Shown in pieces: positions 2 through 48,340 of a stretch of DNA of 61,653 bases. Under the pieces are notes generated by a model, which had not been told where the DNA came from, ran no database searches, and worked only from the letters and a program-made list of their open reading frames with translations. Origin of the DNA: Bacteroidales bacterium (GTDB taxonomy: Bacteria > Bacteroidota > Bacteroidia > Bacteroidales > ML635J-15). Location of the stretch: NCBI GenBank assembly GCA_003249955.1, contig QKHS01000075.1, forward strand, positions 1 through 61,653. The letters run 5' to 3'. The position numbers were made by a program, and so were the translations under genes. The first letter of the stretch is position 1, and each line of letters begins with the position of its first letter.

Positions 2-805
2 AAAGGCGGGATAATCTTCGGAGCGACAAGCGAAAACTCCTTCTTCTGGATAAATCCGGAAGTAGGTCCGGCTCCAGGTCCTGTAACCGAGGTTTATAAC
101 CTTCCGGCGGGAACCTACGACATACGTGCATCCTATCTGACCCCAAACATAACCCACTATTCCTATTACATAAACACGTTCGGAACTGCTAACTGCGTAG
201 ATACCGTACAATACGATATAGAGACAATCGGAATGATAGAAGCAGGTATTTCAATATCTGCCGATGTTATACTGGAAGACCTTGTAGCACCGAATGCCAA
301 TGTAATATTCCTGAACACCTCCGATTATGACAACGTAAGCAAACGCTGCGAATGGCATTTTGATGACGGAACCATAGTAAAGAACTGCGACGAATTAGTA
401 GAGCACGTATATACCGAAGCCGGCTGCTACGAGCCCTTCCTGATAGTAATGAACAGAGATCTTCCCGAGTGTAGAGATACTGCCTATCTTGATGCCTGCG
501 TAAAAGTGGACAATGCCAGCAAGCTGGAGATCCCGAACGTATTCTCCCCTAACGGCGACGGAATCAACGACTTCTTCCAGGTAAAAGCCAGAACACTCAG
601 GACATTCAGCGGAATCATAGTAAACCGTTGGGGACGAACCGTCTATGAATGGACCAACTGGGAAGATTACGAAGCCGGTTGGGACGGAAAACTCGATGGC
701 GGCACTGAAGCTTCCCCCGGAGTATATTTCTATATCATCAAAGCCGAAGGTATGGATGAAGCCCTGTATGACGAGCAGGGAGCTTTCCATCTGATGAGGG
801 AATAA
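2..805 (+). CDS. T9SS type B sorting (gliding motility-associated C-terminal) protein, 5' truncated
   Basis: The reading frame is open from base 2, so this is the C-terminal end of a gene that starts before the window. Its last ~90 residues are a CHU_C / type B sorting domain: the hallmark NVFSPNGDGIND, then VNRWGRTVYEW and GWDGKLDGG, ending near the stop. Such domains send a protein through the type IX secretion system to the cell surface or medium. A PKD-like stretch with WHFDDGT lies before it. The DNA is clearly richer in G+C and in C-ending codons than the next gene, as often seen in large, strongly expressed adhesins. The substrate and full size are unknown. An ECF sigma gene follows 66 bp later on the same strand. 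Confidence 0.9.
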   Translation, partial: KGGIIFGATSENSFFWINPEVGPAPGPVTEVYNLPAGTYDIRASYLTPNITHYSYYINTFGTANCVDTVQYDIETIGMIEAGISISADVILEDLVAPNANVIFLNTSDYDNVSKRCEWHFDDGTIVKNCDELVEHVYTEAGCYEPFLIVMNRDLPECRDTAYLDACVKVDNASKLEIPNVFSPNGDGINDFFQVKARTLRTFSGIIVNRWGRTVYEWTNWEDYEAGWDGKLDGGTEASPGVYFYIIKAEGMDEALYDEQGAFHLMRE

Positions 806-871
806 ATCAGTATTTTCTTTTGTCTTATACAACGTTTTGGAATGTAATATTGTCTTAAAAACAGTTAACAA

Positions 872-1405
872 ATGACGGATAATGAAAAATTAATAAAGCA
901 ATGTCAGAAAAAGTCAGCAAGGGCTTTCGATGAGCTTTATAAAAATTATTCTTCATTAGTTTACGGGATTTGTATAAGATACACTAAAGACAGAGCAGAG
1001 GCTGAAGATTTAATGCAGGAGTGTTTTATAAAAATCCTTAATAAGATAGGCGATTACGAATTTAAAGGTTCTTTTGAAGGTTGGTTGAGACGATTAACGG
1101 TTAATAATGCTATTAACTTCCTGAAGTCAAAAAAGAGTTTTATGTCGGAAGATGTAGGAGAATATGAAATTCAGGATGATAATTTTGGTTCAGATGTTAT
1201 AAGCGACTTGAGTGCCAAAGAAATAATAAGCATAATAAACCGGCTTCCGGCAGGGTACAGGACAGTTTTTAATCTTCATGTAATTGAGGGATATAAACAT
1301 ACTGAAATTGCCGAATTACTGGAGATAAGTGATATTACATGCCGGACCCAATACAAAAAAGCACGCGAAGCATTAATCGCCTTAATAAATGAAAATTATA
1401 AATGA
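872..1405 (+). CDS. ECF-type RNA polymerase sigma factor (sigma-70 family)
   Basis: This 177-residue protein has the two-domain plan of extracytoplasmic-function sigma factors. Region 2 (about residues 22-90) holds the DRAEAEDLMQECFIKI motif used for core binding and -10 recognition. Region 4 (about 125-172) holds LPAGYRTVFNLHVIEGYKHTEIAELL, the -35-binding helix-turn-helix. The ATG is followed by the usual early lysine-rich stretch. The stop overlaps the start of the next gene (ATGA, 1402-1405), so the two are probably translationally coupled. That is the normal layout for an ECF sigma factor and its anti-sigma factor. Its regulon cannot be read from this window. Confidence 0.95.
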   Translation: MTDNEKLIKQCQKKSARAFDELYKNYSSLVYGICIRYTKDRAEAEDLMQECFIKILNKIGDYEFKGSFEGWLRRLTVNNAINFLKSKKSFMSEDVGEYEIQDDNFGSDVISDLSAKEIISIINRLPAGYRTVFNLHVIEGYKHTEIAELLEISDITCRTQYKKAREALIALINENYK

Positions 1406-3027
1406 ACGATTTTAACGACATATTAAAAAACAAACTTGAAGATTTCAGAGAAACCCCTTCTCAGGAAGTCTTTAATAATATCCGTTCTAATTATCCTAAG
1501 AGAACATTTCTTGACTTTTTGAATAATAATAAATATTATTTTATTGCTGCATCAGCAGTACTAATAACTACAGCGATTATTATTTTAAGCTCGTCTGTTA
1601 ATACCCCCGAAAACAAAAATAATGTTACATCTGATGACAGAAATACTGAAATTCAGGATAATACCGAAATAACTGTTGTTACACAGAATGATGCCACTGA
1701 AAATACCGTGAAAACAAATAACGGGAATAACAACATTACAAGTGATAATTTGCCTGTCATAGAGAAATCTGATGCTATGGAAATTATAACAATAAATGTT
1801 TTTAACTCTGATGATACATTGGTGTGTGGAAGTGTTTACGAAACTACAATTAAAGGTTCTGCAGAAAATTTAATTGTTCCGGCAGGCTTAAAACTTATCT
1901 CACTTAATGACAGGCTTAGGATAGTATGTTCAAAAGCCGGCAATTATAAGATATTGTATTCGGAAAAAAACAGCAGCAGAGTTTTATCTGACAGCATGAC
2001 AATATCTTTTAATAATTTATTACCTGCCGATGTAAGTGTCTCTAAAGAAAATTTATGTCCGGAAGAAGATATGACTTTAATAATAAAGAATATTAATGTT
2101 ACCCCTGACTGGACCAACAGAGACCTTAGCTACAGACAATTATCAGCAGGTAAATATATTGTTAGTGGTTTTGCCCCGGGAAAGAATAATCTTACATTTA
2201 CGTTGTCAGATAATAATTGTAAGACGGAATATGCCAGAGAGATTAATGTGGCAGAAACCCCTGATTACAAATATGCATCAACACCAAGTGTGTGTGCAGG
2301 ATCAAATGCAAGCCTGACCATAAACTGCACTAATTTCGCTCCGGTATCTTATATACTCAATAATGAATTAATAAGCAAAGACGGTAAATTTGAAAATCTG
2401 AATTCAGGTATATATTGTCTGGCAATAAACTATGCTTATGGTTGCAGGTTAAACGATACTTTATTAATAAGGGACAGCCTTAATATCAGTCCGTTCTTTA
2501 TCAGCGAACGGGATCTGGTTAATAAGAATAAATATTATTTCAGAAATCTAACCAATGTTGATGATTACGGCTATGAAAGAAATCAGAATATTGAATTTAT
2601 CTGGAAGGTAAATGGAGAAGAATTGCCGCAAAGCGATAATCCTACCTATGAATTTACAGCCGAAGGAAATAATGTTGTGGAATTGATAGCAGTTCTTAGC
2701 GAAACATGTCAGAGCACATATTCTGAAACAATTCTGATTTCAGGTTCAAACTTCAGGATCCCAAATATTTTTACTCCTAACGGAGATGGGATCGGTGATG
2801 AGTTTAAAGTTATTTACGAAGGCGATCTGGCAAATTACGGAATTACAATTATCAACAGATTGGGCGAGATTGTTTATGAAACCAACGACATTAATCGTTC
2901 ATGGGACGGAAAGATTAATGGAAATAACGATGCAAGCGAGGGCTTATATTATTATATTATCAGAGGAGAGGATAAGTTCGGAAACAAAATTGAGCAGAAA
3001 GGTGGTTTACAACTCGTAAGACATTAG
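1402..3027 (+). CDS. Membrane-anchored putative anti-sigma factor with a C-terminal T9SS type B domain
   Basis: A 541-residue protein in three parts. Residues 1-45 are a short cytoplasmic segment (KNKLEDFRETPSQEVFNNI) like the sigma-binding tails of Bacteroidota anti-sigma proteins. Residues 46-66 form one transmembrane helix. The rest is predicted periplasmic: a low-complexity Asn/Thr linker (70-120), Ig- or PKD-like repeats with paired cysteines, and a C-terminal type B sorting domain (IPNIFTPNGDGIGDEF, RLGEIVYET, SWDGKING) ending six residues after KGGLQL. The start overlaps the ECF sigma stop by 4 bp. The anti-sigma role is inferred from context and topology. The odd feature is a secretion signal on a protein that looks tethered to the inner membrane. 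The alternative is that the helix is a late signal peptide and the protein is simply secreted. Confidence 0.8.
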   Translation: MNDFNDILKNKLEDFRETPSQEVFNNIRSNYPKRTFLDFLNNNKYYFIAASAVLITTAIIILSSSVNTPENKNNVTSDDRNTEIQDNTEITVVTQNDATENTVKTNNGNNNITSDNLPVIEKSDAMEIITINVFNSDDTLVCGSVYETTIKGSAENLIVPAGLKLISLNDRLRIVCSKAGNYKILYSEKNSSRVLSDSMTISFNNLLPADVSVSKENLCPEEDMTLIIKNINVTPDWTNRDLSYRQLSAGKYIVSGFAPGKNNLTFTLSDNNCKTEYAREINVAETPDYKYASTPSVCAGSNASLTINCTNFAPVSYILNNELISKDGKFENLNSGIYCLAINYAYGCRLNDTLLIRDSLNISPFFISERDLVNKNKYYFRNLTNVDDYGYERNQNIEFIWKVNGEELPQSDNPTYEFTAEGNNVVELIAVLSETCQSTYSETILISGSNFRIPNIFTPNGDGIGDEFKVIYEGDLANYGITIINRLGEIVYETNDINRSWDGKINGNNDASEGLYYYIIRGEDKFGNKIEQKGGLQLVRH

Positions 3028-3103: not shown

Positions 3104-5254
3104 TTAATCTTCTTCCTGTTCTGCTTCGTATTCTTTGAGCAATTGTTCCTGAACATCCGGCGGAACCTGCTGATACTCGAAGAACGACATTTCGTACATT
3201 GCGCGACCGGCAGTATTTGATCTTAATGCAGTTGAGTAGTTTGACATTTCTGCCAGCGGAACTCTTGCCATGATTTTCTCAAATCCTTTTTCGCTGCTCA
3301 TACCCATTACAATTGCACGACGTCCCTGTAAATCACTCATAACATCACCCATTCTGTCACCGGGAACGAGAATTTCAACATTGTAAATAGGTTCCATAAT
3401 TTTAGGACCGGCATTTTTAAATGCTTTGCTGAATGCGTTACGACCTGCAAGTTTAAATGAGATTTCATTTGAATCAACAGGGTGCATTTTACCATCAACA
3501 ATACAAACACGAATGTCACGGGCATAAGAACCTGTAAGCGGACCAACTTCAAGTTTTTCCATAATACCTTTTAAAATAGCAGGTAAGAATCTGGCTTCGA
3601 TAGAACCACCAACAATACAGTTATAGTAAACTAGTTTTCCGCCCCAATCCAGATTGTACTCATCTTTTCCGCGAACAGAAATTTTGAATTCTTTACCATC
3701 AATTTTATACATTGTCGGATCCGGCATACCTTCGGTATAAGGTTCCATAATCATATGAACTTCACCAAACTGGCCTGCTCCGCCTGATTGTTTTTTATGA
3801 CGATAGTCTGCAAAAGCAACTTTTGTTATTGTCTCGCGATATTGAATTCTTGGTTTCAGGAATTCTGTAGGAATTTTGAATTGATTGTCGAGGTGCCATT
3901 TCATGATATTAAGATGGTATTCGCCCTGACCCTGAACTAATAATTGTTTTAATTCTTTTGAATATTCAACAATAATTGTAGGATCTTCGTCTTTCATTCT
4001 GTTAAGAGCTTCGCCAAGTTTTTCTTCATCACCTTCACTCAAAGCTTTTACAGCAATTCTGTATTTCGGATTCGGCCAGTTTATTCCCTGAGCTTCCCAG
4101 TCCTGACCTGGAGAAACCAAAGTATGGCAGGTTTTTGTACTTTTTAATTTTACAGTAGCACCGATATCTCCGGCAAACATTTTGTCAACTTTAACCCTGT
4201 TTTTACCTGCACAAACGAACAAAGAAGAAAGTCTTTCCTTGGTGTTGTTCTTTGAGTTGTACATGTCAATACTTTCTGTGAGGGTTCCGCTCAGAACTTT
4301 AAAATAACAAATTTCTCCTATGTGTTCTTCTACAGATGTTTTGAAAACAAAAAGTGATGGTTTTGCCGATGAGTCACATTTTATTTCTTTACCTTCAAGA
4401 TCCTTTACCGGAGCAAATTTGTCAGGAGACGGAGTTACCTGAGCAATAAATTCCATTAAACGTTTTACGCCGAGATCGTTTCTTGCATTGGTACAGAAAA
4501 TAGGGAAGATACCTCTTAAAGGCAATCCTGCTGCAATACCACGCATCATTTCTTCTTCTGTCAATGTGTCATTTTCAAAGAAAAGTTCCATTAAAGACTC
4601 ATCAGCTTCAGCAGCTTTTTCGATTAACTGGGTTTTTACTTCTTCAGCCTGATCAGCATGTTCGGCAGGGATATCACTTATTTCGACATCATTACCTTTT
4701 AAAGTGTACATTTTATTGGTAATAACATCTATTATTGCATTGAACCCTGTTCCTGCATTTACCGGGAACTGAGCTAAAACAGCATTTCCGCCAAATGTTT
4801 CTTTAACCATTTCCACAGCTTTCTCGAAATTGGTTTTTTCATGATCAAGGTGGTTAATGGCGATAATCATAGGTTTCTCTGCTTTTTCAACATAGCGACC
4901 CTGAATTTCAGTACCTACTTCAACTCCGTTCTGAGCATTGATAAGCATTAAAGCAGTATCGGCAGCATATAGCGAAGAAACAAGACTCCCGATAAAATCA
5001 TCCATTCCCGGATTATCAAGTATATTGATTTTTGTATTGGCAATTTCTGTGTATAATACTGTAGAAAACAATGAGTTACCGTTTTCCTGTTCAATAGGAC
5101 GGTAATCTGATACAGTGTTTTTACTTGCTATATCACCTTTTCTATTAATTACTCCTCCGATTTGTAACATAGATTCGGCCATAATGGTTTTGCCAGAGCC
5201 TGAATTCCCTACCAAAGCTATGTTTCTGATCTGATCCGTTTGATAATTTTTCAT
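3104..5254 (-). CDS. Elongation factor G paralogue (EF-G2 type) with altered GTPase motifs
   Basis: At 716 residues this has the full EF-G length and all five EF-G domains, including the domain IV sequence RHKKQSGGAGQFGEVH and the domain V end. The G-domain departs from canonical EF-G. G1 is GNSGSGKT (16-23) instead of AHIDAGKT. Switch I lacks the ERGIT motif (EQENGNS here). G3 is DNPGMDD (80-86) instead of DTPGHVD, so the histidine that activates GTP hydrolysis is replaced by Met. G4 is NHLD (134-137) instead of NKMD. Bacteroides thetaiotaomicron has an EF-G2 reported to support translation without ribosome-dependent GTPase activity, and this protein fits that class by length and substitutions. 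It is probably not the housekeeping fusA, which normally sits with rpsL/rpsG. It stands alone with its own promoter. Confidence 0.9.
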   Translation of the reverse strand: MKNYQTDQIRNIALVGNSGSGKTIMAESMLQIGGVINRKGDIASKNTVSDYRPIEQENGNSLFSTVLYTEIANTKINILDNPGMDDFIGSLVSSLYAADTALMLINAQNGVEVGTEIQGRYVEKAEKPMIIAINHLDHEKTNFEKAVEMVKETFGGNAVLAQFPVNAGTGFNAIIDVITNKMYTLKGNDVEISDIPAEHADQAEEVKTQLIEKAAEADESLMELFFENDTLTEEEMMRGIAAGLPLRGIFPIFCTNARNDLGVKRLMEFIAQVTPSPDKFAPVKDLEGKEIKCDSSAKPSLFVFKTSVEEHIGEICYFKVLSGTLTESIDMYNSKNNTKERLSSLFVCAGKNRVKVDKMFAGDIGATVKLKSTKTCHTLVSPGQDWEAQGINWPNPKYRIAVKALSEGDEEKLGEALNRMKDEDPTIIVEYSKELKQLLVQGQGEYHLNIMKWHLDNQFKIPTEFLKPRIQYRETITKVAFADYRHKKQSGGAGQFGEVHMIMEPYTEGMPDPTMYKIDGKEFKISVRGKDEYNLDWGGKLVYYNCIVGGSIEARFLPAILKGIMEKLEVGPLTGSYARDIRVCIVDGKMHPVDSNEISFKLAGRNAFSKAFKNAGPKIMEPIYNVEILVPGDRMGDVMSDLQGRRAIVMGMSSEKGFEKIMARVPLAEMSNYSTALRSNTAGRAMYEMSFFEYQQVPPDVQEQLLKEYEAEQEED

Positions 5255-31312: not shown

Positions 31313-34300
31313 CTATTGCTTTACAATGCGTTGGTTTAGTGTTTTGTCTCCGCTTGATATTTTTACAAAATAAACACCCGATGCATAGGAACTGATGTCA
31401 AACTCTTTTGTTACAGTACCATTGCAATTAACAACTTCGGAATGTATGAGTTTTCCGTCTATTCCCAGTATCTGAATTGATGCCGTTTCTGCATTTTGAG
31501 AAACTATTTCGACATTGAATCTTCCCTGATTAGGATTCGGATATACATTTACAGATGTTTCAGTGTTTATTGAAGGGGCTGAAACAAATAGTTTTATATA
31601 CACAGAATCTTCTGTATAACATCCTTCGGTGTTTAAAATCAGACTGTACCATCCTTCGGCATTAACAGACTGTTCGCCGGTTGTACTTCCTGCAAGCCAT
31701 GTCCAGACAGGAGTAAGATAAGATGAATCCGGAGTGTATGTAACTTCTGCTGTAATTAAATAAGGGAAACTTCCGGTAATGATAGTATCATTCATGTCAT
31801 CATCTGCAGGGAAAGATATTGCCTGATCAAAATGAACAATAAATCCGTTTATTGTGTCATTATTCAGATTTTCATCATGCTCATAATCAATGTATGCTTT
31901 GAAAACAACAGTTCCGATTGCAGATAAATCTACGGTGTTGGTAGTAAATCCGAATTGAGTGGTGCCCGGAGACATGTCTTCGGAAACTGTAATATCTTCA
32001 TTCAGCATTATAACAGATTCAGATTCAAGATATAATGTAAACATTGTTCCGGCAGTAATAGTTGAAGTACCGGTGTTTTCGACCATGTAAGGAACACTTG
32101 TTGTCTCGTTTAATTCGCAGTTGTATCCTGAGCTGGGCTCAATAAGAGCTAAATCGGATGTAAGTGTGACATCGGTATAATTTATATCTATTGATAAATA
32201 GTTGTTTAATACGGCATCTGCATTGTTGCTCACAAAAGCACTGTTTGAAAAGTTAAAATCGAAACTGGTATTGTCTGCAGCAGTGTGAGAGTCTGCATAA
32301 CCTGTATATGATAGCATAACCTGAGTGGTGGAAAGAACAAGTGCCTCAAATGTAAGCCCTGATGGGACATAAGAAACATAATAGTCACTACCTGCTGTAA
32401 GTAAATTACCAACGTTGGTAAACTCATCATTTTCAAGTGTTATTGTTATTGCATTTGATATAGCTCCGTCATTATCGTTTGATTCATAAAAATCTAATCC
32501 GGAAGCAGTCAGGGTCGGTAAGGAATTATCGCTGCTGATTTCGAGAGTATAATCGCCGTATTCATCTGAATCATATCCGTAAACCATTACATAATAAACA
32601 CCTGCAGGTAAGCTTTCATAGAAAACAGTTGAATTTAAATCATTAGTGCAAAGGTAGTAGTTATCATCGTCATTATACCCGATTTGAGTGCTACAATCAC
32701 TGTACACATTTATTTTTGTGTCAAAATCGGAGTTGCAGGTAGAAAACAATACTCCGTCATAATTTTGATCCAGAGTAACCGAGTACCAGTGATATCCTGA
32801 TGATTCTATCGTGTTAAAACTTGCAGCATCGTTTATTGTTCCGTAGTTAAAGGCTGTAGCACAATTACTTCCTTCAACCAGACTAAAACTAAACGGACCT
32901 GTCCATGATGACGATTCTGTAGGACTGCAAACTGCCAGAATATAGTAATCATATTCTCCTTCTGTTAATTCAGTAATTAAATATTCCGGTGTTGTGATAT
33001 TATTTATCATAGTTCCTGCCCCGGGAGTAAAACCGGAGTCGCCGTATTCCAGATTAAATTCTGCTCCGGAATTGAGGCTTTGCCAGTTTATTAAAACACT
33101 TGAACCGCTTAAAGTTGTTGCATATGCACCAAAAGGATCTACACACCCTGTTAATTCGGAAATACTTAAGTTATCCACAAAAATTTCAATATCCTGACCA
33201 CCATCAATTGTGCTTTCACCGTAGAATGCAAATTTAGCAACTCCTGTATAGGCTGTCAAATCAACCAGATAATGAGCTCCTGATGCCGGAATATCATCGC
33301 TTTCGGAATCGATTGTCTTTATCGTGTTTGCCGGGTTCCAGCTAATTCCTCCGTCTGTGGAGATTAAAATTGCATAATAATCGTCAGCCTCAAAATTACC
33401 ATGGCTTGTTGATTCATAATCTGTTAGTGCCATGTCAAAAGACAATGCGTAGTGTACAGAGCCGTCGCCCAAATCAAAAGCAGGGCTTATCATCCAATCG
33501 ACTGCAGATTCGTCATATAAATTTATAACTAAAGCATTATCTCCTGTATTTGCAAAAGATGAAAAATAGAAATAAAAATAATCATCATAATCCACATCAT
33601 AGAACATTGTCTGTGCAGATAAAATTCCTGTTTTGTACTGCCAGCAGTAGTCAACCATATTGTATACTTCTGAATAAGATTCAAAATCTTCTGTCCATGG
33701 AAAAGTTGCTATCGGAGAGCAATCTTCCATTGCATCAGCGAACAGAATAATATCAATATCATCAATGGCAATTTCATCTCTTTCGCCTGTTCCGCCGGCA
33801 TCGTCTGTTGACCATTTTAAATAAAGAAATCCTCCTGCAGGAATGGTAATGTTGGCTTTTATTATTCTGTTGTATTCCTGCCATTCCGGGGTTGTTTCAG
33901 ATTCTGCAATACTGCTGAATAAGTGTTCTGAGTCATTAATAAAAGTTATATTGTCAGTTGACCAGCTACAGTTAAAACTTGTTGATCTGTCTGCATTGTT
34001 CAACATGTAAATTTTATATTGAACTCCAAAACTGTTTATATCTGCACCTGTATTGTTCTCAACTTTCAGAGTAATGGAGCCAGGTGTCATGTCATCATCA
34101 GAACTCTGAAATCCCAAACATTCAGATAATGATGTGTAAGAGTACAATCCACCGGTTGTAACGCCTCCACCACTTGTTCCCATAGCATAATCTCCGGTTG
34201 TCGCTTCTGTTCCGAAATCCTTTACCCCCGACAAATCGCTCATCCCTTTAATTTCCCATGCATCTGCGTCCAGATATCCATCGGTAGGATCTGTTAAAAA

Positions 34301-34453
34301 ACCCAGGCCTGTAAAAGTCCCGAAGTTGACCCCGTTCACAGTGCTGTTGAAGTCAATAACATTCTCCGAACCGGCAGAATTAATAACCAGTTGTGCAAAT
34401 GATGCCACCGGAATGACTATCATTATAAATAATAGTAATCTCATTTTTTTCAT
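31313..34453 (-). CDS. Large secreted T9SS type A (Por_Secre_tail) multidomain protein
   Basis: About 1046 residues from the ATG at 34453. The signal peptide is MKKMRLLLFIMIVIPVASFAQ (cleaved after SFAQ). The first ~240 residues are a jelly-roll-like region common in Bacteroidota exoproteins. Next comes a choice-of-anchor or cleaved-adhesin-like domain (about 245-440, FPWTEDFESY and FVDNLSI), a fibronectin type III unit, a pre-peptidase-like domain (about 535-655), a CARDB-like region and a short PKD-like part. The end NVYPNPNQGRFNVEI to LNQRIVKQ is the type A sorting domain, so the protein crosses the outer membrane by T9SS and is usually anchored through A-LPS. No catalytic domain is visible; adhesion is possible. 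Confidence 0.92.
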   Translation of the reverse strand: MKKMRLLLFIMIVIPVASFAQLVINSAGSENVIDFNSTVNGVNFGTFTGLGFLTDPTDGYLDADAWEIKGMSDLSGVKDFGTEATTGDYAMGTSGGGVTTGGLYSYTSLSECLGFQSSDDDMTPGSITLKVENNTGADINSFGVQYKIYMLNNADRSTSFNCSWSTDNITFINDSEHLFSSIAESETTPEWQEYNRIIKANITIPAGGFLYLKWSTDDAGGTGERDEIAIDDIDIILFADAMEDCSPIATFPWTEDFESYSEVYNMVDYCWQYKTGILSAQTMFYDVDYDDYFYFYFSSFANTGDNALVINLYDESAVDWMISPAFDLGDGSVHYALSFDMALTDYESTSHGNFEADDYYAILISTDGGISWNPANTIKTIDSESDDIPASGAHYLVDLTAYTGVAKFAFYGESTIDGGQDIEIFVDNLSISELTGCVDPFGAYATTLSGSSVLINWQSLNSGAEFNLEYGDSGFTPGAGTMINNITTPEYLITELTEGEYDYYILAVCSPTESSSWTGPFSFSLVEGSNCATAFNYGTINDAASFNTIESSGYHWYSVTLDQNYDGVLFSTCNSDFDTKINVYSDCSTQIGYNDDDNYYLCTNDLNSTVFYESLPAGVYYVMVYGYDSDEYGDYTLEISSDNSLPTLTASGLDFYESNDNDGAISNAITITLENDEFTNVGNLLTAGSDYYVSYVPSGLTFEALVLSTTQVMLSYTGYADSHTAADNTSFDFNFSNSAFVSNNADAVLNNYLSIDINYTDVTLTSDLALIEPSSGYNCELNETTSVPYMVENTGTSTITAGTMFTLYLESESVIMLNEDITVSEDMSPGTTQFGFTTNTVDLSAIGTVVFKAYIDYEHDENLNNDTINGFIVHFDQAISFPADDDMNDTIITGSFPYLITAEVTYTPDSSYLTPVWTWLAGSTTGEQSVNAEGWYSLILNTEGCYTEDSVYIKLFVSAPSINTETSVNVYPNPNQGRFNVEIVSQNAETASIQILGIDGKLIHSEVVNCNGTVTKEFDISSYASGVYFVKISSGDKTLNQRIVKQ

Positions 34454-34480
34454 GCTTCTATGTTTTAAATTAATTATTGA

Positions 34481-34488
34481 CAAAGGTA
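34481..34488 (-). promoter_or_regulatory. -7 promoter box of the T9SS type A gene
   Basis: TACCTTTG on the minus strand fits TAnnTTTG. It overlaps the first in-frame ATG (34483), which supports the downstream ATG at 34453 as the start. Confidence 0.65.
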
Positions 34489-44986: not shown

Positions 44987-45412
44987 AATTATTTTTATGA
45001 TATAAAAATGAAAACATGTTCTTTAGCAGATTATTTAAATGACATAAGTTTGGTTTTAAGCAAATCCATGCTTGTATTATCCGTCTGAATCAGAAAAAAT
45101 TCTTTGTAAGATTTTTAAGAATTTTGTCTGATCAGTAATTTTATATAATTATTTACCTGATGGCATGTTTTAAACCCATGTTTACTTTACTCTTTTTATT
45201 TGTTTTTATGACTGTGAATATCTTTGCTTATTGTTTAATGTGATGATTTCCAGTGTATTGTAAAAAAGAAATTCCGACCCTGGGATCTAAGAAGGATTAC
45301 GGTTTTTATTTTGTAAATAATTATATTATTATTTCCCCTGATATAAGCAGAATGTTTGTATCTTAGTAGCAAAATTTGATTGCATTATATAAGCTATAGT
45401 ATTTGTAAAAGA
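44987..45412. other. Divergent 426-bp intergenic region
   Basis: No gene, RNA or strong repeat is visible between the carbamate kinase promoter and the repeat-protein gene. No clear TAnnTTTG box was found for the plus-strand gene. Confidence 0.4.
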
Positions 45413-48340
45413 ATGATTTTGAATAAGTTGCGCATACTGTTATACATACAGTGTATTACTCTGGTTTTTAAAGCATATCCGGCTTATTCAAACGAAAGCC
45501 GGGAAACTTTAATTTCTGAAAACTTTAAAAAAGAATTAATTGGTCTGAACAATTTTCAGAGGACTAACGGAGATGTTTTATTCGGATCTTCAGATTATCT
45601 GTCACCGGTTATGGGAGAGAGAACTGATAGTTCAATGAACAGGAATGTCTTGCAAATAATTTTTCAAACGACTAATTCAAACTGTAACAATAGTATTAGT
45701 GATGGCTCGGTTAATATTACAGTGATTGGAGGAACGGAACCATATACATATAGCTGGTCAGAAGGTAGTACAGGACAGAATATCAGTAATTTATCTGCAG
45801 GATGGTATATAGTAACCGTTACAGATAGTTCTGTACCTGCTGTTACTGAGACAGACAGTGTCGAAGTACATTCGGATATTATTCCTGATGTAAGCCTTGG
45901 AAATGATACTACAATCTGTGCCGGCAGCAATATAATATTGAATGCCGGTAATCCGGATTGTAATTACTTATGGTCAACCGGAGAAAGTACCCAAACAATA
46001 AATGTGAATTCCGGCGGGACATATATTGTAAGCGTAACCAATTCATGCGGAACTGTTACTGATGCAATTTCTGTCGGCTTTGTTTTTCCTTTATCCTATC
46101 ACAATATCGGGAATGATACTACAATATGCTCCGCCAATCCTTTATCTGTAAGCGCCGGAAATCAGGCTGCCGCGTATTTGTGGTCAACCGGAGAAACAAA
46201 TCATAGTATAAGTGTAAATGCTACCGGAATATATAGTGTTATTATCACCAATGCCTGCGGAAGTGTTTATGATACAATTAATGTGGTCGCTCAACCTCCG
46301 CTTACGCCTGTTAATCTTGGTAATGATACGACAATATGTGTTAGAATTCCACGCGATCTTGACGCCGGTAATCCGGGGGCCCAATACTTATGGTCAACAG
46401 GTGAAACCACACAGATTGTTTCGGTCGGACTTGCAACTACTTACAGTGTTACAGTTACAAATTCGTGCGATACGGTCACAGACGAGATTAATGTGTTTGT
46501 TGATTATCCTATACCAACGGTGTATTTGCCCGAAGACACCGTTACATTATGTTCGGGCGAAGAACTCTTGTTAAACTCCGGTAATCCGGGAGCAAATCAT
46601 TTATGGTCAACCGGTGAAACAACCACCCAAATAAGTGTCAGCTCTGCCGGAACATATTATTATACAGTATCAAATGCCTGCACATCTTACAGCGATACTC
46701 TTGTTTTTCAAACCATTGATCCGCTACCTCCGGTTGATTTTGGTAATGATACAACAATTTGCAGCTCAGTTTCTTTGATACTTGATGCCGGTTTCTCAGG
46801 AGCAGATTATTTATGGTCAACCGGAGAAATAACACAATCTGTAGTTGTAAATTCTGCCGGAACCTATAGCTTGGTTGCTTCAAACCTGTGTGGTTCTGTG
46901 GGTGACACAATTGCAATTTCAGCAGAGCAGCCTTTGGTTCCTGTTGATTTCGGTCCTGATGCCCGTTTATGTGAAGGTACACCACTTTTCCTTAATGCAG
47001 GAAATAACGGAGCAACTTATTTATGGTCAACCGGCGAAACAGCGCAAATAATAGCAGTCAGCACAAATGGGATCTATAGTGTTGTAGCTACAAATGCCTG
47101 CGGGTCTTCTTCAGATACAATAGAACTGAGAGTTGATCCTGTTTTAGCACCTGTAAATCTTGGTGATGACAGAATTATTTGTGATTACAGTTCTGTTGTG
47201 CTTGATGCCGGCACCCAGATAGCTGACTATTTATGGTCAACCGGCGAAACCACACAAACTATAACTGTTAACGAAAGCGGAGTTTATGCTGTATATTTAA
47301 CCAATTCATGCGGAACAGTTTCTGATGAAATTACAGTGATTTATGAAGATCCTTTACCGGAAATTTCATTGGGGCCGGATATTTTTATATGTCCGGGATC
47401 AGATGTTTTGTTGAGTCCGGGATATCTTCCGGGGACATATATCTGGTCCACTTCGGCTACAACACAAATAATAAGTGTAAGTAATCCGCAGGCATATTCC
47501 GTGACTATATCAAATGCCTGTGGTAGTGTAACTGATGAAATTTATATTTTTCAAAGAGATATTCTCAGGGTTGGTGCGAATGCAACTTGTGTCGGAGATG
47601 ACATGTTTATACATTGTGCTAATGATGGATTATCCTCATATAGCTGGATTATTCCGGGTGGAGACACTGTCCCGGGACAGACGATACGAATTGAAAACGT
47701 TACTGAAGCAAATAACGGGTATTATCAGTTTATTCTGGTCGATACTGTATTATGCGGTAGTGGCATTTTTTATTATGAGGTTCATGTCCCGCCTGTTCTG
47801 GGAGTTAGTCATCTTGATGAAACCTGTATATCGGCACGTGACGGTATTGCTGAGTTTGTTTTTCCTGCAAAAACACCGGATCAGGAGATGGATCCGGATT
47901 TTAAATATTACATATACTTTGATAACAGCTGGCATTCGACATCGTCTGAAGATATTACATTTGACTTATTACATCCACGTGTATATAATTATTTTTTTAC
48001 GATAGATAATGTCTGTTATGTCTCAGATAGTATAAAGATTGAGCCTGCCGAATTTATCTGCACAGACCACACACTATATATTCCCGATGCTTTTACTCCG
48101 AACGGGGATGGCATTAATGACACGTTATTTGTTTTTGGAAGTAATATTTATTATTTCAATATGGTAATTTATGACAGATGGACAGAAAAAATGTTTGAGT
48201 ATCAGGATATTTCATATGGTTGGGACGGTACTTATGGTGGGCAGCCATGCAAACAGGATACATATGTTTATGTACTGCAGGTGTTTTTTACAGATGGTTG
48301 TCATGAAACCAGAAAAGGACGTATTAACTTATTGCGGTAG
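45413..48340 (+). CDS. T9SS type B surface protein with eight ~70-residue repeats
   Basis: About 975 residues from ATG 45413 (the longer TTG frame is less likely). A hydrophobic N-terminus (to about KAYPAYS) serves as signal. A SprB-type repeat (about 90-165, GGTEPYTYSWSEGSTGQNI) comes first. Eight tandem units then follow, each with LGNDTTIC, LDAGN, YLWSTGETTQ and a second Cys in NSCG or NACG, so each is probably a disulfide-bonded Ig-like module. After a PKD-like region the end (YIPDAFTPNGDGINDTLF, YDRWTEKMFEY, GWDGTYGG) is the type B sorting domain. Such proteins act as surface adhesins or matrix. The repeats differ enough to be old duplications. Confidence 0.92.
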   Translation: MILNKLRILLYIQCITLVFKAYPAYSNESRETLISENFKKELIGLNNFQRTNGDVLFGSSDYLSPVMGERTDSSMNRNVLQIIFQTTNSNCNNSISDGSVNITVIGGTEPYTYSWSEGSTGQNISNLSAGWYIVTVTDSSVPAVTETDSVEVHSDIIPDVSLGNDTTICAGSNIILNAGNPDCNYLWSTGESTQTINVNSGGTYIVSVTNSCGTVTDAISVGFVFPLSYHNIGNDTTICSANPLSVSAGNQAAAYLWSTGETNHSISVNATGIYSVIITNACGSVYDTINVVAQPPLTPVNLGNDTTICVRIPRDLDAGNPGAQYLWSTGETTQIVSVGLATTYSVTVTNSCDTVTDEINVFVDYPIPTVYLPEDTVTLCSGEELLLNSGNPGANHLWSTGETTTQISVSSAGTYYYTVSNACTSYSDTLVFQTIDPLPPVDFGNDTTICSSVSLILDAGFSGADYLWSTGEITQSVVVNSAGTYSLVASNLCGSVGDTIAISAEQPLVPVDFGPDARLCEGTPLFLNAGNNGATYLWSTGETAQIIAVSTNGIYSVVATNACGSSSDTIELRVDPVLAPVNLGDDRIICDYSSVVLDAGTQIADYLWSTGETTQTITVNESGVYAVYLTNSCGTVSDEITVIYEDPLPEISLGPDIFICPGSDVLLSPGYLPGTYIWSTSATTQIISVSNPQAYSVTISNACGSVTDEIYIFQRDILRVGANATCVGDDMFIHCANDGLSSYSWIIPGGDTVPGQTIRIENVTEANNGYYQFILVDTVLCGSGIFYYEVHVPPVLGVSHLDETCISARDGIAEFVFPAKTPDQEMDPDFKYYIYFDNSWHSTSSEDITFDLLHPRVYNYFFTIDNVCYVSDSIKIEPAEFICTDHTLYIPDAFTPNGDGINDTLFVFGSNIYYFNMVIYDRWTEKMFEYQDISYGWDGTYGGQPCKQDTYVYVLQVFFTDGCHETRKGRINLLR
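45884..47568 (+). repeat. Eight tandem ~210-bp coding repeats
   Basis: Each unit contains a nearly identical DNA core for LWSTGET (TTATGGTCAACCGG). Unit starts are spaced about 207-216 bp. The last unit is the most diverged (IWSTSATTQ). Confidence 0.88.

Follow-up and report, generated by a model that had tools for sequence, protein, structure and literature searches.

The FlgM/sigma-28 pair of flagella has a soluble anti-sigma factor which leaves through the type III apparatus, and in FecR-type cell-surface signalling the anti-sigma factor is coupled to an outer-membrane transport event; anti-sigma factors are usually released by proteolysis. To our knowledge no pathway has been described by which Bacteroidota adjust the supply of type IX secretion system (T9SS) clients to export capacity. 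The present work concerns a gene pair on a contig of 61,653 nt from a Bacteroidales bacterium (QKHS01000075.1, GenBank assembly GCA_003249955.1, positions 1–61,653 of the forward strand; this whole stretch is referred to below as the window). The first gene (872–1405) encodes an extracytoplasmic function (ECF) sigma factor and the second (1402–3027) a candidate membrane anti-sigma factor of 541 residues which ends in a T9SS type B sorting domain, here called the C-terminal domain (CTD). The pair is best read as an anti-sigma factor tagged as a T9SS client together with a sigma factor that drives T9SS clients, a membrane-anchored form of the FlgM logic, and the probability that it couples client transcription to T9SS export is put at about one half.

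As with FlgM, the anti-sigma factor would carry the export signal of the very machine whose substrates its sigma factor drives, the latter by prediction; unlike FlgM, the 541-residue protein is not soluble but anchored in the inner membrane, and it is tagged for the T9SS. Coupling of an anti-sigma factor to an outer-membrane transport event is, by proposal, shared with FecR-type signalling, but no FecR-type domain was matched by Pfam in this protein. Among other described systems, the Dma proteins have an anti-sigma domain and a helix joined by a disordered tether to a barrel, and Dma1 and Dma2 are reported to affect vesiculation and polysaccharide utilization loci (PMC13088901). The window protein resembles them in its N-terminal candidate anti-sigma part, its one helix, its disordered tether (residues 67–123) and its adjacent ECF gene, but immunoglobulin (Ig)-like and PKD-like domains and a type B CTD take the place of the C-terminal beta-barrel and, unlike for Dma1 and Dma2, the predicted targets are T9SS clients. 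The partners of Dma proteins are ECF21 sigma factors; here the adjoining gene is of ECF type.

In Porphyromonas gingivalis the PorXY-SigP pathway controls T9SS component genes, and the surface protein PorA is thought to act via the two-component system (PMC7712824). A preliminary description of the window drew on this analogy. In both cases a CTD-bearing protein feeds, here by prediction, an ECF sigma factor linked to the T9SS; the likely targets here, however, are clients and not component genes, and the CTD is on the candidate anti-sigma factor itself. The SM6 class of ECF promoters in Flavobacterium psychrophilum (PMC9723704) is likewise linked to the T9SS and has a sigma/anti-sigma pair among its genes, but it lies before genes of the machinery, GldN and PorU among them, and its −10 element is a CGT box. 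PorA-PorXY-SigP and SM6 were the nearest T9SS–sigma links among the matches viewed in a search of open-licence papers, and no CTD-bearing anti-sigma factor was found among those matches; a precedent in subscription journals or sigma databases is possible.

Anatomy of the gene pair

Both genes lie on the forward strand and are joined by an ATGA overlap, as the preliminary description had stated and as the open reading frames (ORFs) of the window and the Pfam matches bear out. The product of 872–1405 (177 aa) is a small protein with sigma-70 regions 2 and 4 only (Pfam Sigma70_r2, 1e-16; Sigma70_r4_2, 1.9e-14), as expected of an ECF sigma factor. The product of 1402–3027 begins with a cytoplasmic tail (residues 1–44; 1402–1533), a candidate sigma-binding segment of PPxxV/W type according to a tail profile (see below) and the structural model. 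It is followed by a membrane helix (residues 45–66; 1534–1599), which is the single strongly hydrophobic stretch near the N-terminus (best 19-mer from residue 48) and coincides with a model helix at 36–65. With about 44 residues before the helix, the protein lacks the Sec signal peptide of type B clients. A disordered linker (residues 67–123; 1600–1770), with a predicted local distance difference test score (pLDDT) below 50 throughout and the lowest conservation, leads to about three Ig-like domains and one PKD-like domain (residues 124–447; 1771–2742), which are suggested by model strands and Foldseek and whose boundaries were set by the author. The CTD (residues 448–541; 2743–3024) is matched by CHU_C over residues 452–537 (4.5e-18; 65.6 bits against a cut-off of 27) and by TIGR04131 over residues 452–538 (48.1 bits against a cut-off of 35). 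Hydropathy, model and both families therefore agree with the earlier account of a short tail, one helix, a long outer region and a full type B domain, and the observation of an ECF sigma gene with a CTD-bearing second gene is confirmed.

No FecR, zinc anti-sigma (ZAS) or RskA domain was found in the 541-residue protein in Pfam and NCBIfam at E values up to 1. Within that limit only CHU_C and TIGR04131 were matched, besides PKD_3, which fell short of its cut-off (E 0.012), and a KH domain (0.099) put down to chance; PADLOC gave no match. The AlphaFold2 model, built from 17 sequences (mean pLDDT 72.2, predicted template modelling score 0.41), shows helices at 2–13, 21–30 and 36–65, disorder at 67–123 and then successive beta domains; confidence is low in the tail, including helices 2–13 and 21–30, and in parts of the CTD, and the placement of the domains is unreliable. 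Against the PDB, Foldseek ranked the bacterial grappling-hook protein GhpA first; various Ig-like chains came next, and the TM-scores were low throughout. A search with only the CTD placed an antifreeze-protein tandemer (5.7e-10) and GhpA (1.3e-4) at the head of the solved structures, the former match looking like a repeat resemblance.

Conservation of the pair

Relatives were searched in 61 genomes (the genome itself and 60 relatives), of which 26 are congeneric. Orthologues of the 541-residue protein are present in 21 of the 26 (its own genome and 20 others, 35–53% identity), that of G011 (L013) having one in-frame TAA beside an open sigma frame and that of G009 being split over two contigs. 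Two other members of the family, G028 and G029, also have orthologues, and more diverged ones are found in G026, G030 and G039. Of the 26 loci L009–L034, 24 have the sigma gene immediately upstream, and the other two (L017 and L033) begin at a contig end. A separate search with the sigma factor (E<1e-60) found its orthologue in the same 21 congeneric genomes, and the other five have neither gene. A profile search with the alignment returned 18 named loci and a single-protein query none; the named relatives are metagenome-assembled genomes (MAGs) labelled Bacteroidales, Bacteroidia or Bacteroidota, several with a ruminant source in the title.

At the level of the order, 295 genomes were searched with the profile of alignment A1, and loci L283–L310 were inspected among a larger number of matches. 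Two of these are congeneric. Among the 26 others, 16 have the same two-gene architecture and 10 do not; the 16 come from 16 genomes of eight further families and show 37–48% identity over the main segment, and four loci (L298, L299, L301, L308) start inside the sigma gene. In 15 of the 16 non-congeneric homologues the best hydrophobic stretch begins at residue 41–54, the ambiguous start of L287 placing it outside this count. The homologues with an adjoining sigma gene thus carry a membrane helix and not a cleavable signal peptide, as foreseen in the preliminary description, and the length of their tails rules out an ordinary signal-peptide client. Some homologues are only about 410 aa long. 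SprA was found in 16 of 17 tested genomes with the pair; the one without it, G156, is a MAG of 82% completeness. Of 12 comparison genomes which gave no order-level match, 8 have SprA. The expectation that the fusion beside ECF genes is confined to T9SS-positive genomes agrees with the former count, but T9SS genomes without the pair exist, and the T9SS by itself does not predict presence of the pair.

The CTD is the most conserved region. In A1 (20 rows) 25 of its 94 columns are at least 90% conserved, compared with 10 of 87 for the PKD-like domain, 9 of 75 for the third Ig-like region, 6 of 44 for the tail and none of 57 for the linker. The CTD leads again in A4, an alignment of 22 diverse rows (15 of 94 columns), in which the linker and the first two Ig-like regions are poorly conserved (majority fraction 0.23–0.27) while PKD-like domain and CTD are retained. 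Since orthologues are found in 21 of 26 congeners and the CTD is their most conserved part, the observation is more than chance. An accidental fusion is ruled out by conservation over nine families.

Predicted promoter and regulon

Upstream of the sigma gene, positions 830–855 (forward strand) hold a predicted sigma promoter, CAACG-N15-TTGTC(T), which is supported by a footprint in the loci of relatives and would place the pair under autoregulation. The form CAAC(G)-N15-YTGTC precedes the sigma gene in all 23 family loci, of which 20 match exactly and three have CAACN; outside the family it was found at 8 of 11 loci. In the family loci it lies 11–20 nt before the sigma start, the start codons having been picked by the author where alternatives existed (L030 uses TTG). 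No exact match was found in the scored stretch upstream of the 18 other sigma-domain genes of the genome (spacers of 14–17; best 9 of 10 positions), which rules out a generic ECF motif. The promoter of a second pair of CTD type, read by eye as CAAC(T/C)...CGTC-like, also counts against such a motif.

A first, looser motif showed no excess in the genome itself (16 sites against 26 for the reversed motif). The refined motif CAACGWWW-N12-YTGTCW, which was picked after viewing the matches of the looser one, gave 10 sites against 3 reversed in the same genome. Among the congeneric genomes the counts were 141 against 33 for the 21 that have the pair and 15 against 18 for the five that lack it. The Fisher p for this difference is 8e-5, or 4e-4 after removal of one site per pair genome, values which are too small because the genomes are related and the sites are not independent. 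From the 141 sites 135 were counted, six being left out (four in G022, two in G003); 18 are the sigma factor's own promoter. Among the remaining 117, 95 are situated outside long ORFs, and 76 are followed by an ORF with a signal peptide at a median distance of 42 nt. In the reversed control, of which the 30 sites with loci (out of 51) were considered, four lie outside ORFs and four before a signal-peptide ORF. When only sites outside ORFs and with enough downstream sequence are taken, 72 of 89 precede a signal-peptide ORF against a background of 19 of 48 genes in the window, the signal-peptide rule being home-made and permissive enough for those 19 to pass.

Within the 76, a T9SS CTD was found in 26 first genes (12 type A, 14 type B) and in seven second genes, while 25 run off the contig or stretch and 18 show no CTD; for the reversed sites the flank is too short for a comparison of CTDs. 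No gene of the T9SS machinery was recognised among the listed first genes, by reading and with no dedicated scan, and the machinery was set aside as the regulon. Several of the first genes are small (about 145 aa, secreted) and lie directly before giant adhesins, some of which end in a type B CTD; the small proteins gave no Pfam match in the three cases tested. It should also be noted that this order of promoter, secreted orphan ORF of about 145 aa and giant adhesin forms a repeated cassette (L199, L176, L177, L172, L173, L183, L211, L212, L224). At L186 and L187 (G011:C10) adhesin genes of the cassette family read as successive separate ORFs in the ORF list.

Kinship of the CTD and of the tail

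Directly upstream of the pair, positions 2–805 (forward strand) encode the C-terminal 267 residues of a type B client (CHU_C, 2e-18; TIGR04131, 39.6 bits) from an adhesin cassette which is cut by the contig end. The client noted at this position in the preliminary description is therefore real, but only its last 267 residues are present. In G006 (L199) the gene before the sigma gene is intact, encodes 2,136 aa and stands behind a secreted ORF of 148 aa. The genome has 42 TIGR04131 matches and at least 150 type A matches, and a tree was constructed from 40 type B CTDs, two of the 42 being left out. This tree placed the anti-sigma CTD as sister (support 0.944) to the CTDs of five adhesins, C45:4299, C13:119051, C84:527, C86:4201 and C45:8104, with 39–41% identity, C84:527 being the upstream client of the window. 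Client C7:24299 is equally similar (40%), yet it is placed elsewhere in the tree. The motif occurs 64 nt before the start of the C13 adhesin gene, and other adhesin cassettes are preceded by a near-motif on contig C45 and by a motif site on contig C86; the adhesin family of the upstream client thus has members behind the promoter motif of the pair. Identical CTD copies stand at several contig ends of this genome and are probably the reason for the assembly breaks there.

Type B CTDs need specific PorP/SprF-like shuttles, and five motifs are necessary (PMC12618676). A shuttle common to the anti-sigma factor and the adhesins is a plausible proposal. In the window the direct neighbours of the pair are the client at 2–805 and an EF-G-like gene, with no PorP/SprF-like gene directly alongside; orphan type B clients are known (PMC12618676).

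A hidden Markov model (HMM) of the tail was built from A4 and scored on 162 ORFs, the majority of which came from ECF loci and the window. Second only to the window protein itself was an ECF neighbour on contig C66 (1.2e-11 and 3.2e-11; one gene in two overlapping loci). The ECF neighbour at L342 (6.5e-6) and three CTD proteins of the second type (1.8e-5 to 3.5e-4) were also matched, the other loci of that type having E values of about 1 or worse; no other ORF of the window scored better than 0.5. The C66 protein (L339, G000:C66:68500-71600; 581 aa) has, by eye, a barrel-like end and an aromatic last residue, and no Pfam match, and it is Dma-like by architecture only, so that the likeness of the tail is to a Dma-like protein of this genome and not to Dma1 itself. 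Because the tail is homologous to those of other ECF-adjacent proteins, it would most simply be the sigma-binding segment, and the 541-residue protein a Dma-like protein in which the barrel has been replaced. At L339 the adjacent sigma factor is 43% identical to that of the window, and the tail motif is apparently present twice.

A second ECF sigma/CTD-bearing anti-sigma pair is found at G000:C65:223436-225233 (L040, L090) and at L037, L043–L045, L050, L051 and L054. Its CTD protein has about 420 aa and a divergent CTD (Pfam CHU_C, 33 bits). Judged by coordinates, at least three of the five congeners that lack the first pair have this second one (G002, G004, G010).

Interpretation

In the proposed mechanism the cytoplasmic tail would hold the sigma factor. 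The remainder of the protein would reach across the membrane into the periplasm, where it would display a type B CTD of the subtype found in adhesins of the predicted regulon. A free T9SS, namely translocon and PorP/SprF-type shuttle, would capture this CTD, and pulling on or cleavage of the inner-membrane-anchored protein would free the sigma factor, upon which the clients and the pair itself would be made. Clients occupying the shuttles would then displace the anti-sigma CTD and the sigma factor would be held again. That a free machine switches the sigma factor on is suggested by analogy, since this direction is borrowed from the FlgM logic and the usual proteolytic release of anti-sigma factors; the opposite sign is possible. 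It may be suggested, more tentatively, that the protein is a membrane-anchored decoy client, whose CTD vies with those of real clients for a single class of shuttle and whose capture by a free T9SS switches the sigma factor on, and that this T9SS counterpart of FlgM arose via a barrel-to-tag swap in a Dma-like protein and has been kept in nine or more families of the order. The proposal of the preliminary description that the second protein is an anti-sigma factor was upheld in its architecture, conserved pairing and T9SS link, whereas sigma binding by the tail, engagement of the CTD by the T9SS and release of the sigma factor by pulling or cutting are predictions. That interpretation is partly supported, and it is sharpened by the predicted client-rich regulon; the protein would be a Dma-like anti-sigma factor with a T9SS tag.

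Several results weigh against the coupling of client transcription to export, besides the non-independent sites and the permissive signal-peptide rule given above. The promoter footprint is absent, by a scripted count, from three homologues of other families (L285, L286, L303). In the five congeners without the pair, 12 of the 15 motif sites lie outside ORFs and 11 before signal-peptide ORFs, and several precede the same client families. These congeners are MAGs of 89–95% completeness and the locus is often near contig ends, so that the pair may be hidden by a gap; alternatively, a second sigma factor may read the motif. In nine genomes of other genera and families 28 sites were found against 20 reversed; 16 of the 28 lie outside ORFs, and 10 stand before an ORF with a signal peptide. 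Most type B clients of the genome itself are not among its exact motif sites, and the motif targets include type A clients, which use PorV and not the PorP/SprF shuttle (PMC12618676). Finally, three of the five sister CTDs (C84:527, C86:4201, C45:8104) are identical copies.

Other explanations of the CTD were considered. It could be a static outer-membrane tether which docks on a PorP/SprF-like barrel without being exported, the protein then reading the state of the outer membrane or envelope, and not T9SS traffic, as Dma proteins do with their own barrel. The homology of the tail to a Dma-like protein of the same genome, the order of parts, which is that of Dma2 (PMC13088901), and the type B protein PG1035, which retains its CTD and binds PorP (PMC9143113), all fit such a tether. 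It is nevertheless held to be unlikely, as many motif targets are T9SS clients and the CTD subtype follows that of the adhesin clients. The CTD could instead serve only to carry the Ig-like and PKD-like domains to the surface, where a ligand or contact would be sensed and adhesins induced. Such a surface sensor would account for the resemblance of these domains to adhesin modules such as GhpA and for the adhesin genes among the targets, but it is distinctly unlikely given the poor conservation of the linker and of the first two Ig-like regions, in contrast to the retained PKD-like domain and CTD, and given that some homologues have only about 410 aa.

The doubt may also be turned to the regulon or to the pair itself. 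The pair might be a true sigma/anti-sigma pair while the client promoters are read chiefly by a different sigma factor, in which case the CTD would have an unrelated role. Motif sites before secreted proteins in the five pair-less congeners, and the existence of sigma paralogues up to 44–45% identical, leave this a slim chance, which is reduced by the facts that the motif is the pair's own promoter, that it has no exact match in the scored stretch upstream of the other 18 sigma-domain genes and that its excess tracks the presence of the pair. It is very hard to credit that the protein is no anti-sigma factor at all but a membrane-anchored client merely beside a sigma gene: for this speaks the lack of a known anti-sigma domain match in Pfam or NCBIfam, and against it the conservation of the gene pair in nine families and a tail common to other ECF-adjacent proteins.

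If the coupling of transcription to export is true, cells of this uncultured group of Bacteroidales could match the making of surface proteins to export capacity, and an anti-sigma factor with the sorting tag of the clients would be a direct feedback sensor and a ready reporter for T9SS activity. It would also be the second case, after flagella, of an anti-sigma factor tied to the secretion route of its regulon. The motif gives a candidate promoter for adhesin genes in these Bacteroidales, several named relatives being from ruminants.

Other features of the window

The EF-G-like protein next to the pair is encoded at 3104–5254, convergent with the anti-sigma gene. A second type B client (45380–48340; 986 aa), with one SprB repeat just under the cut-off, has a CTD which is not close to that of the anti-sigma factor. 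A type A T9SS client of 1056 aa is encoded at 31313–34483.
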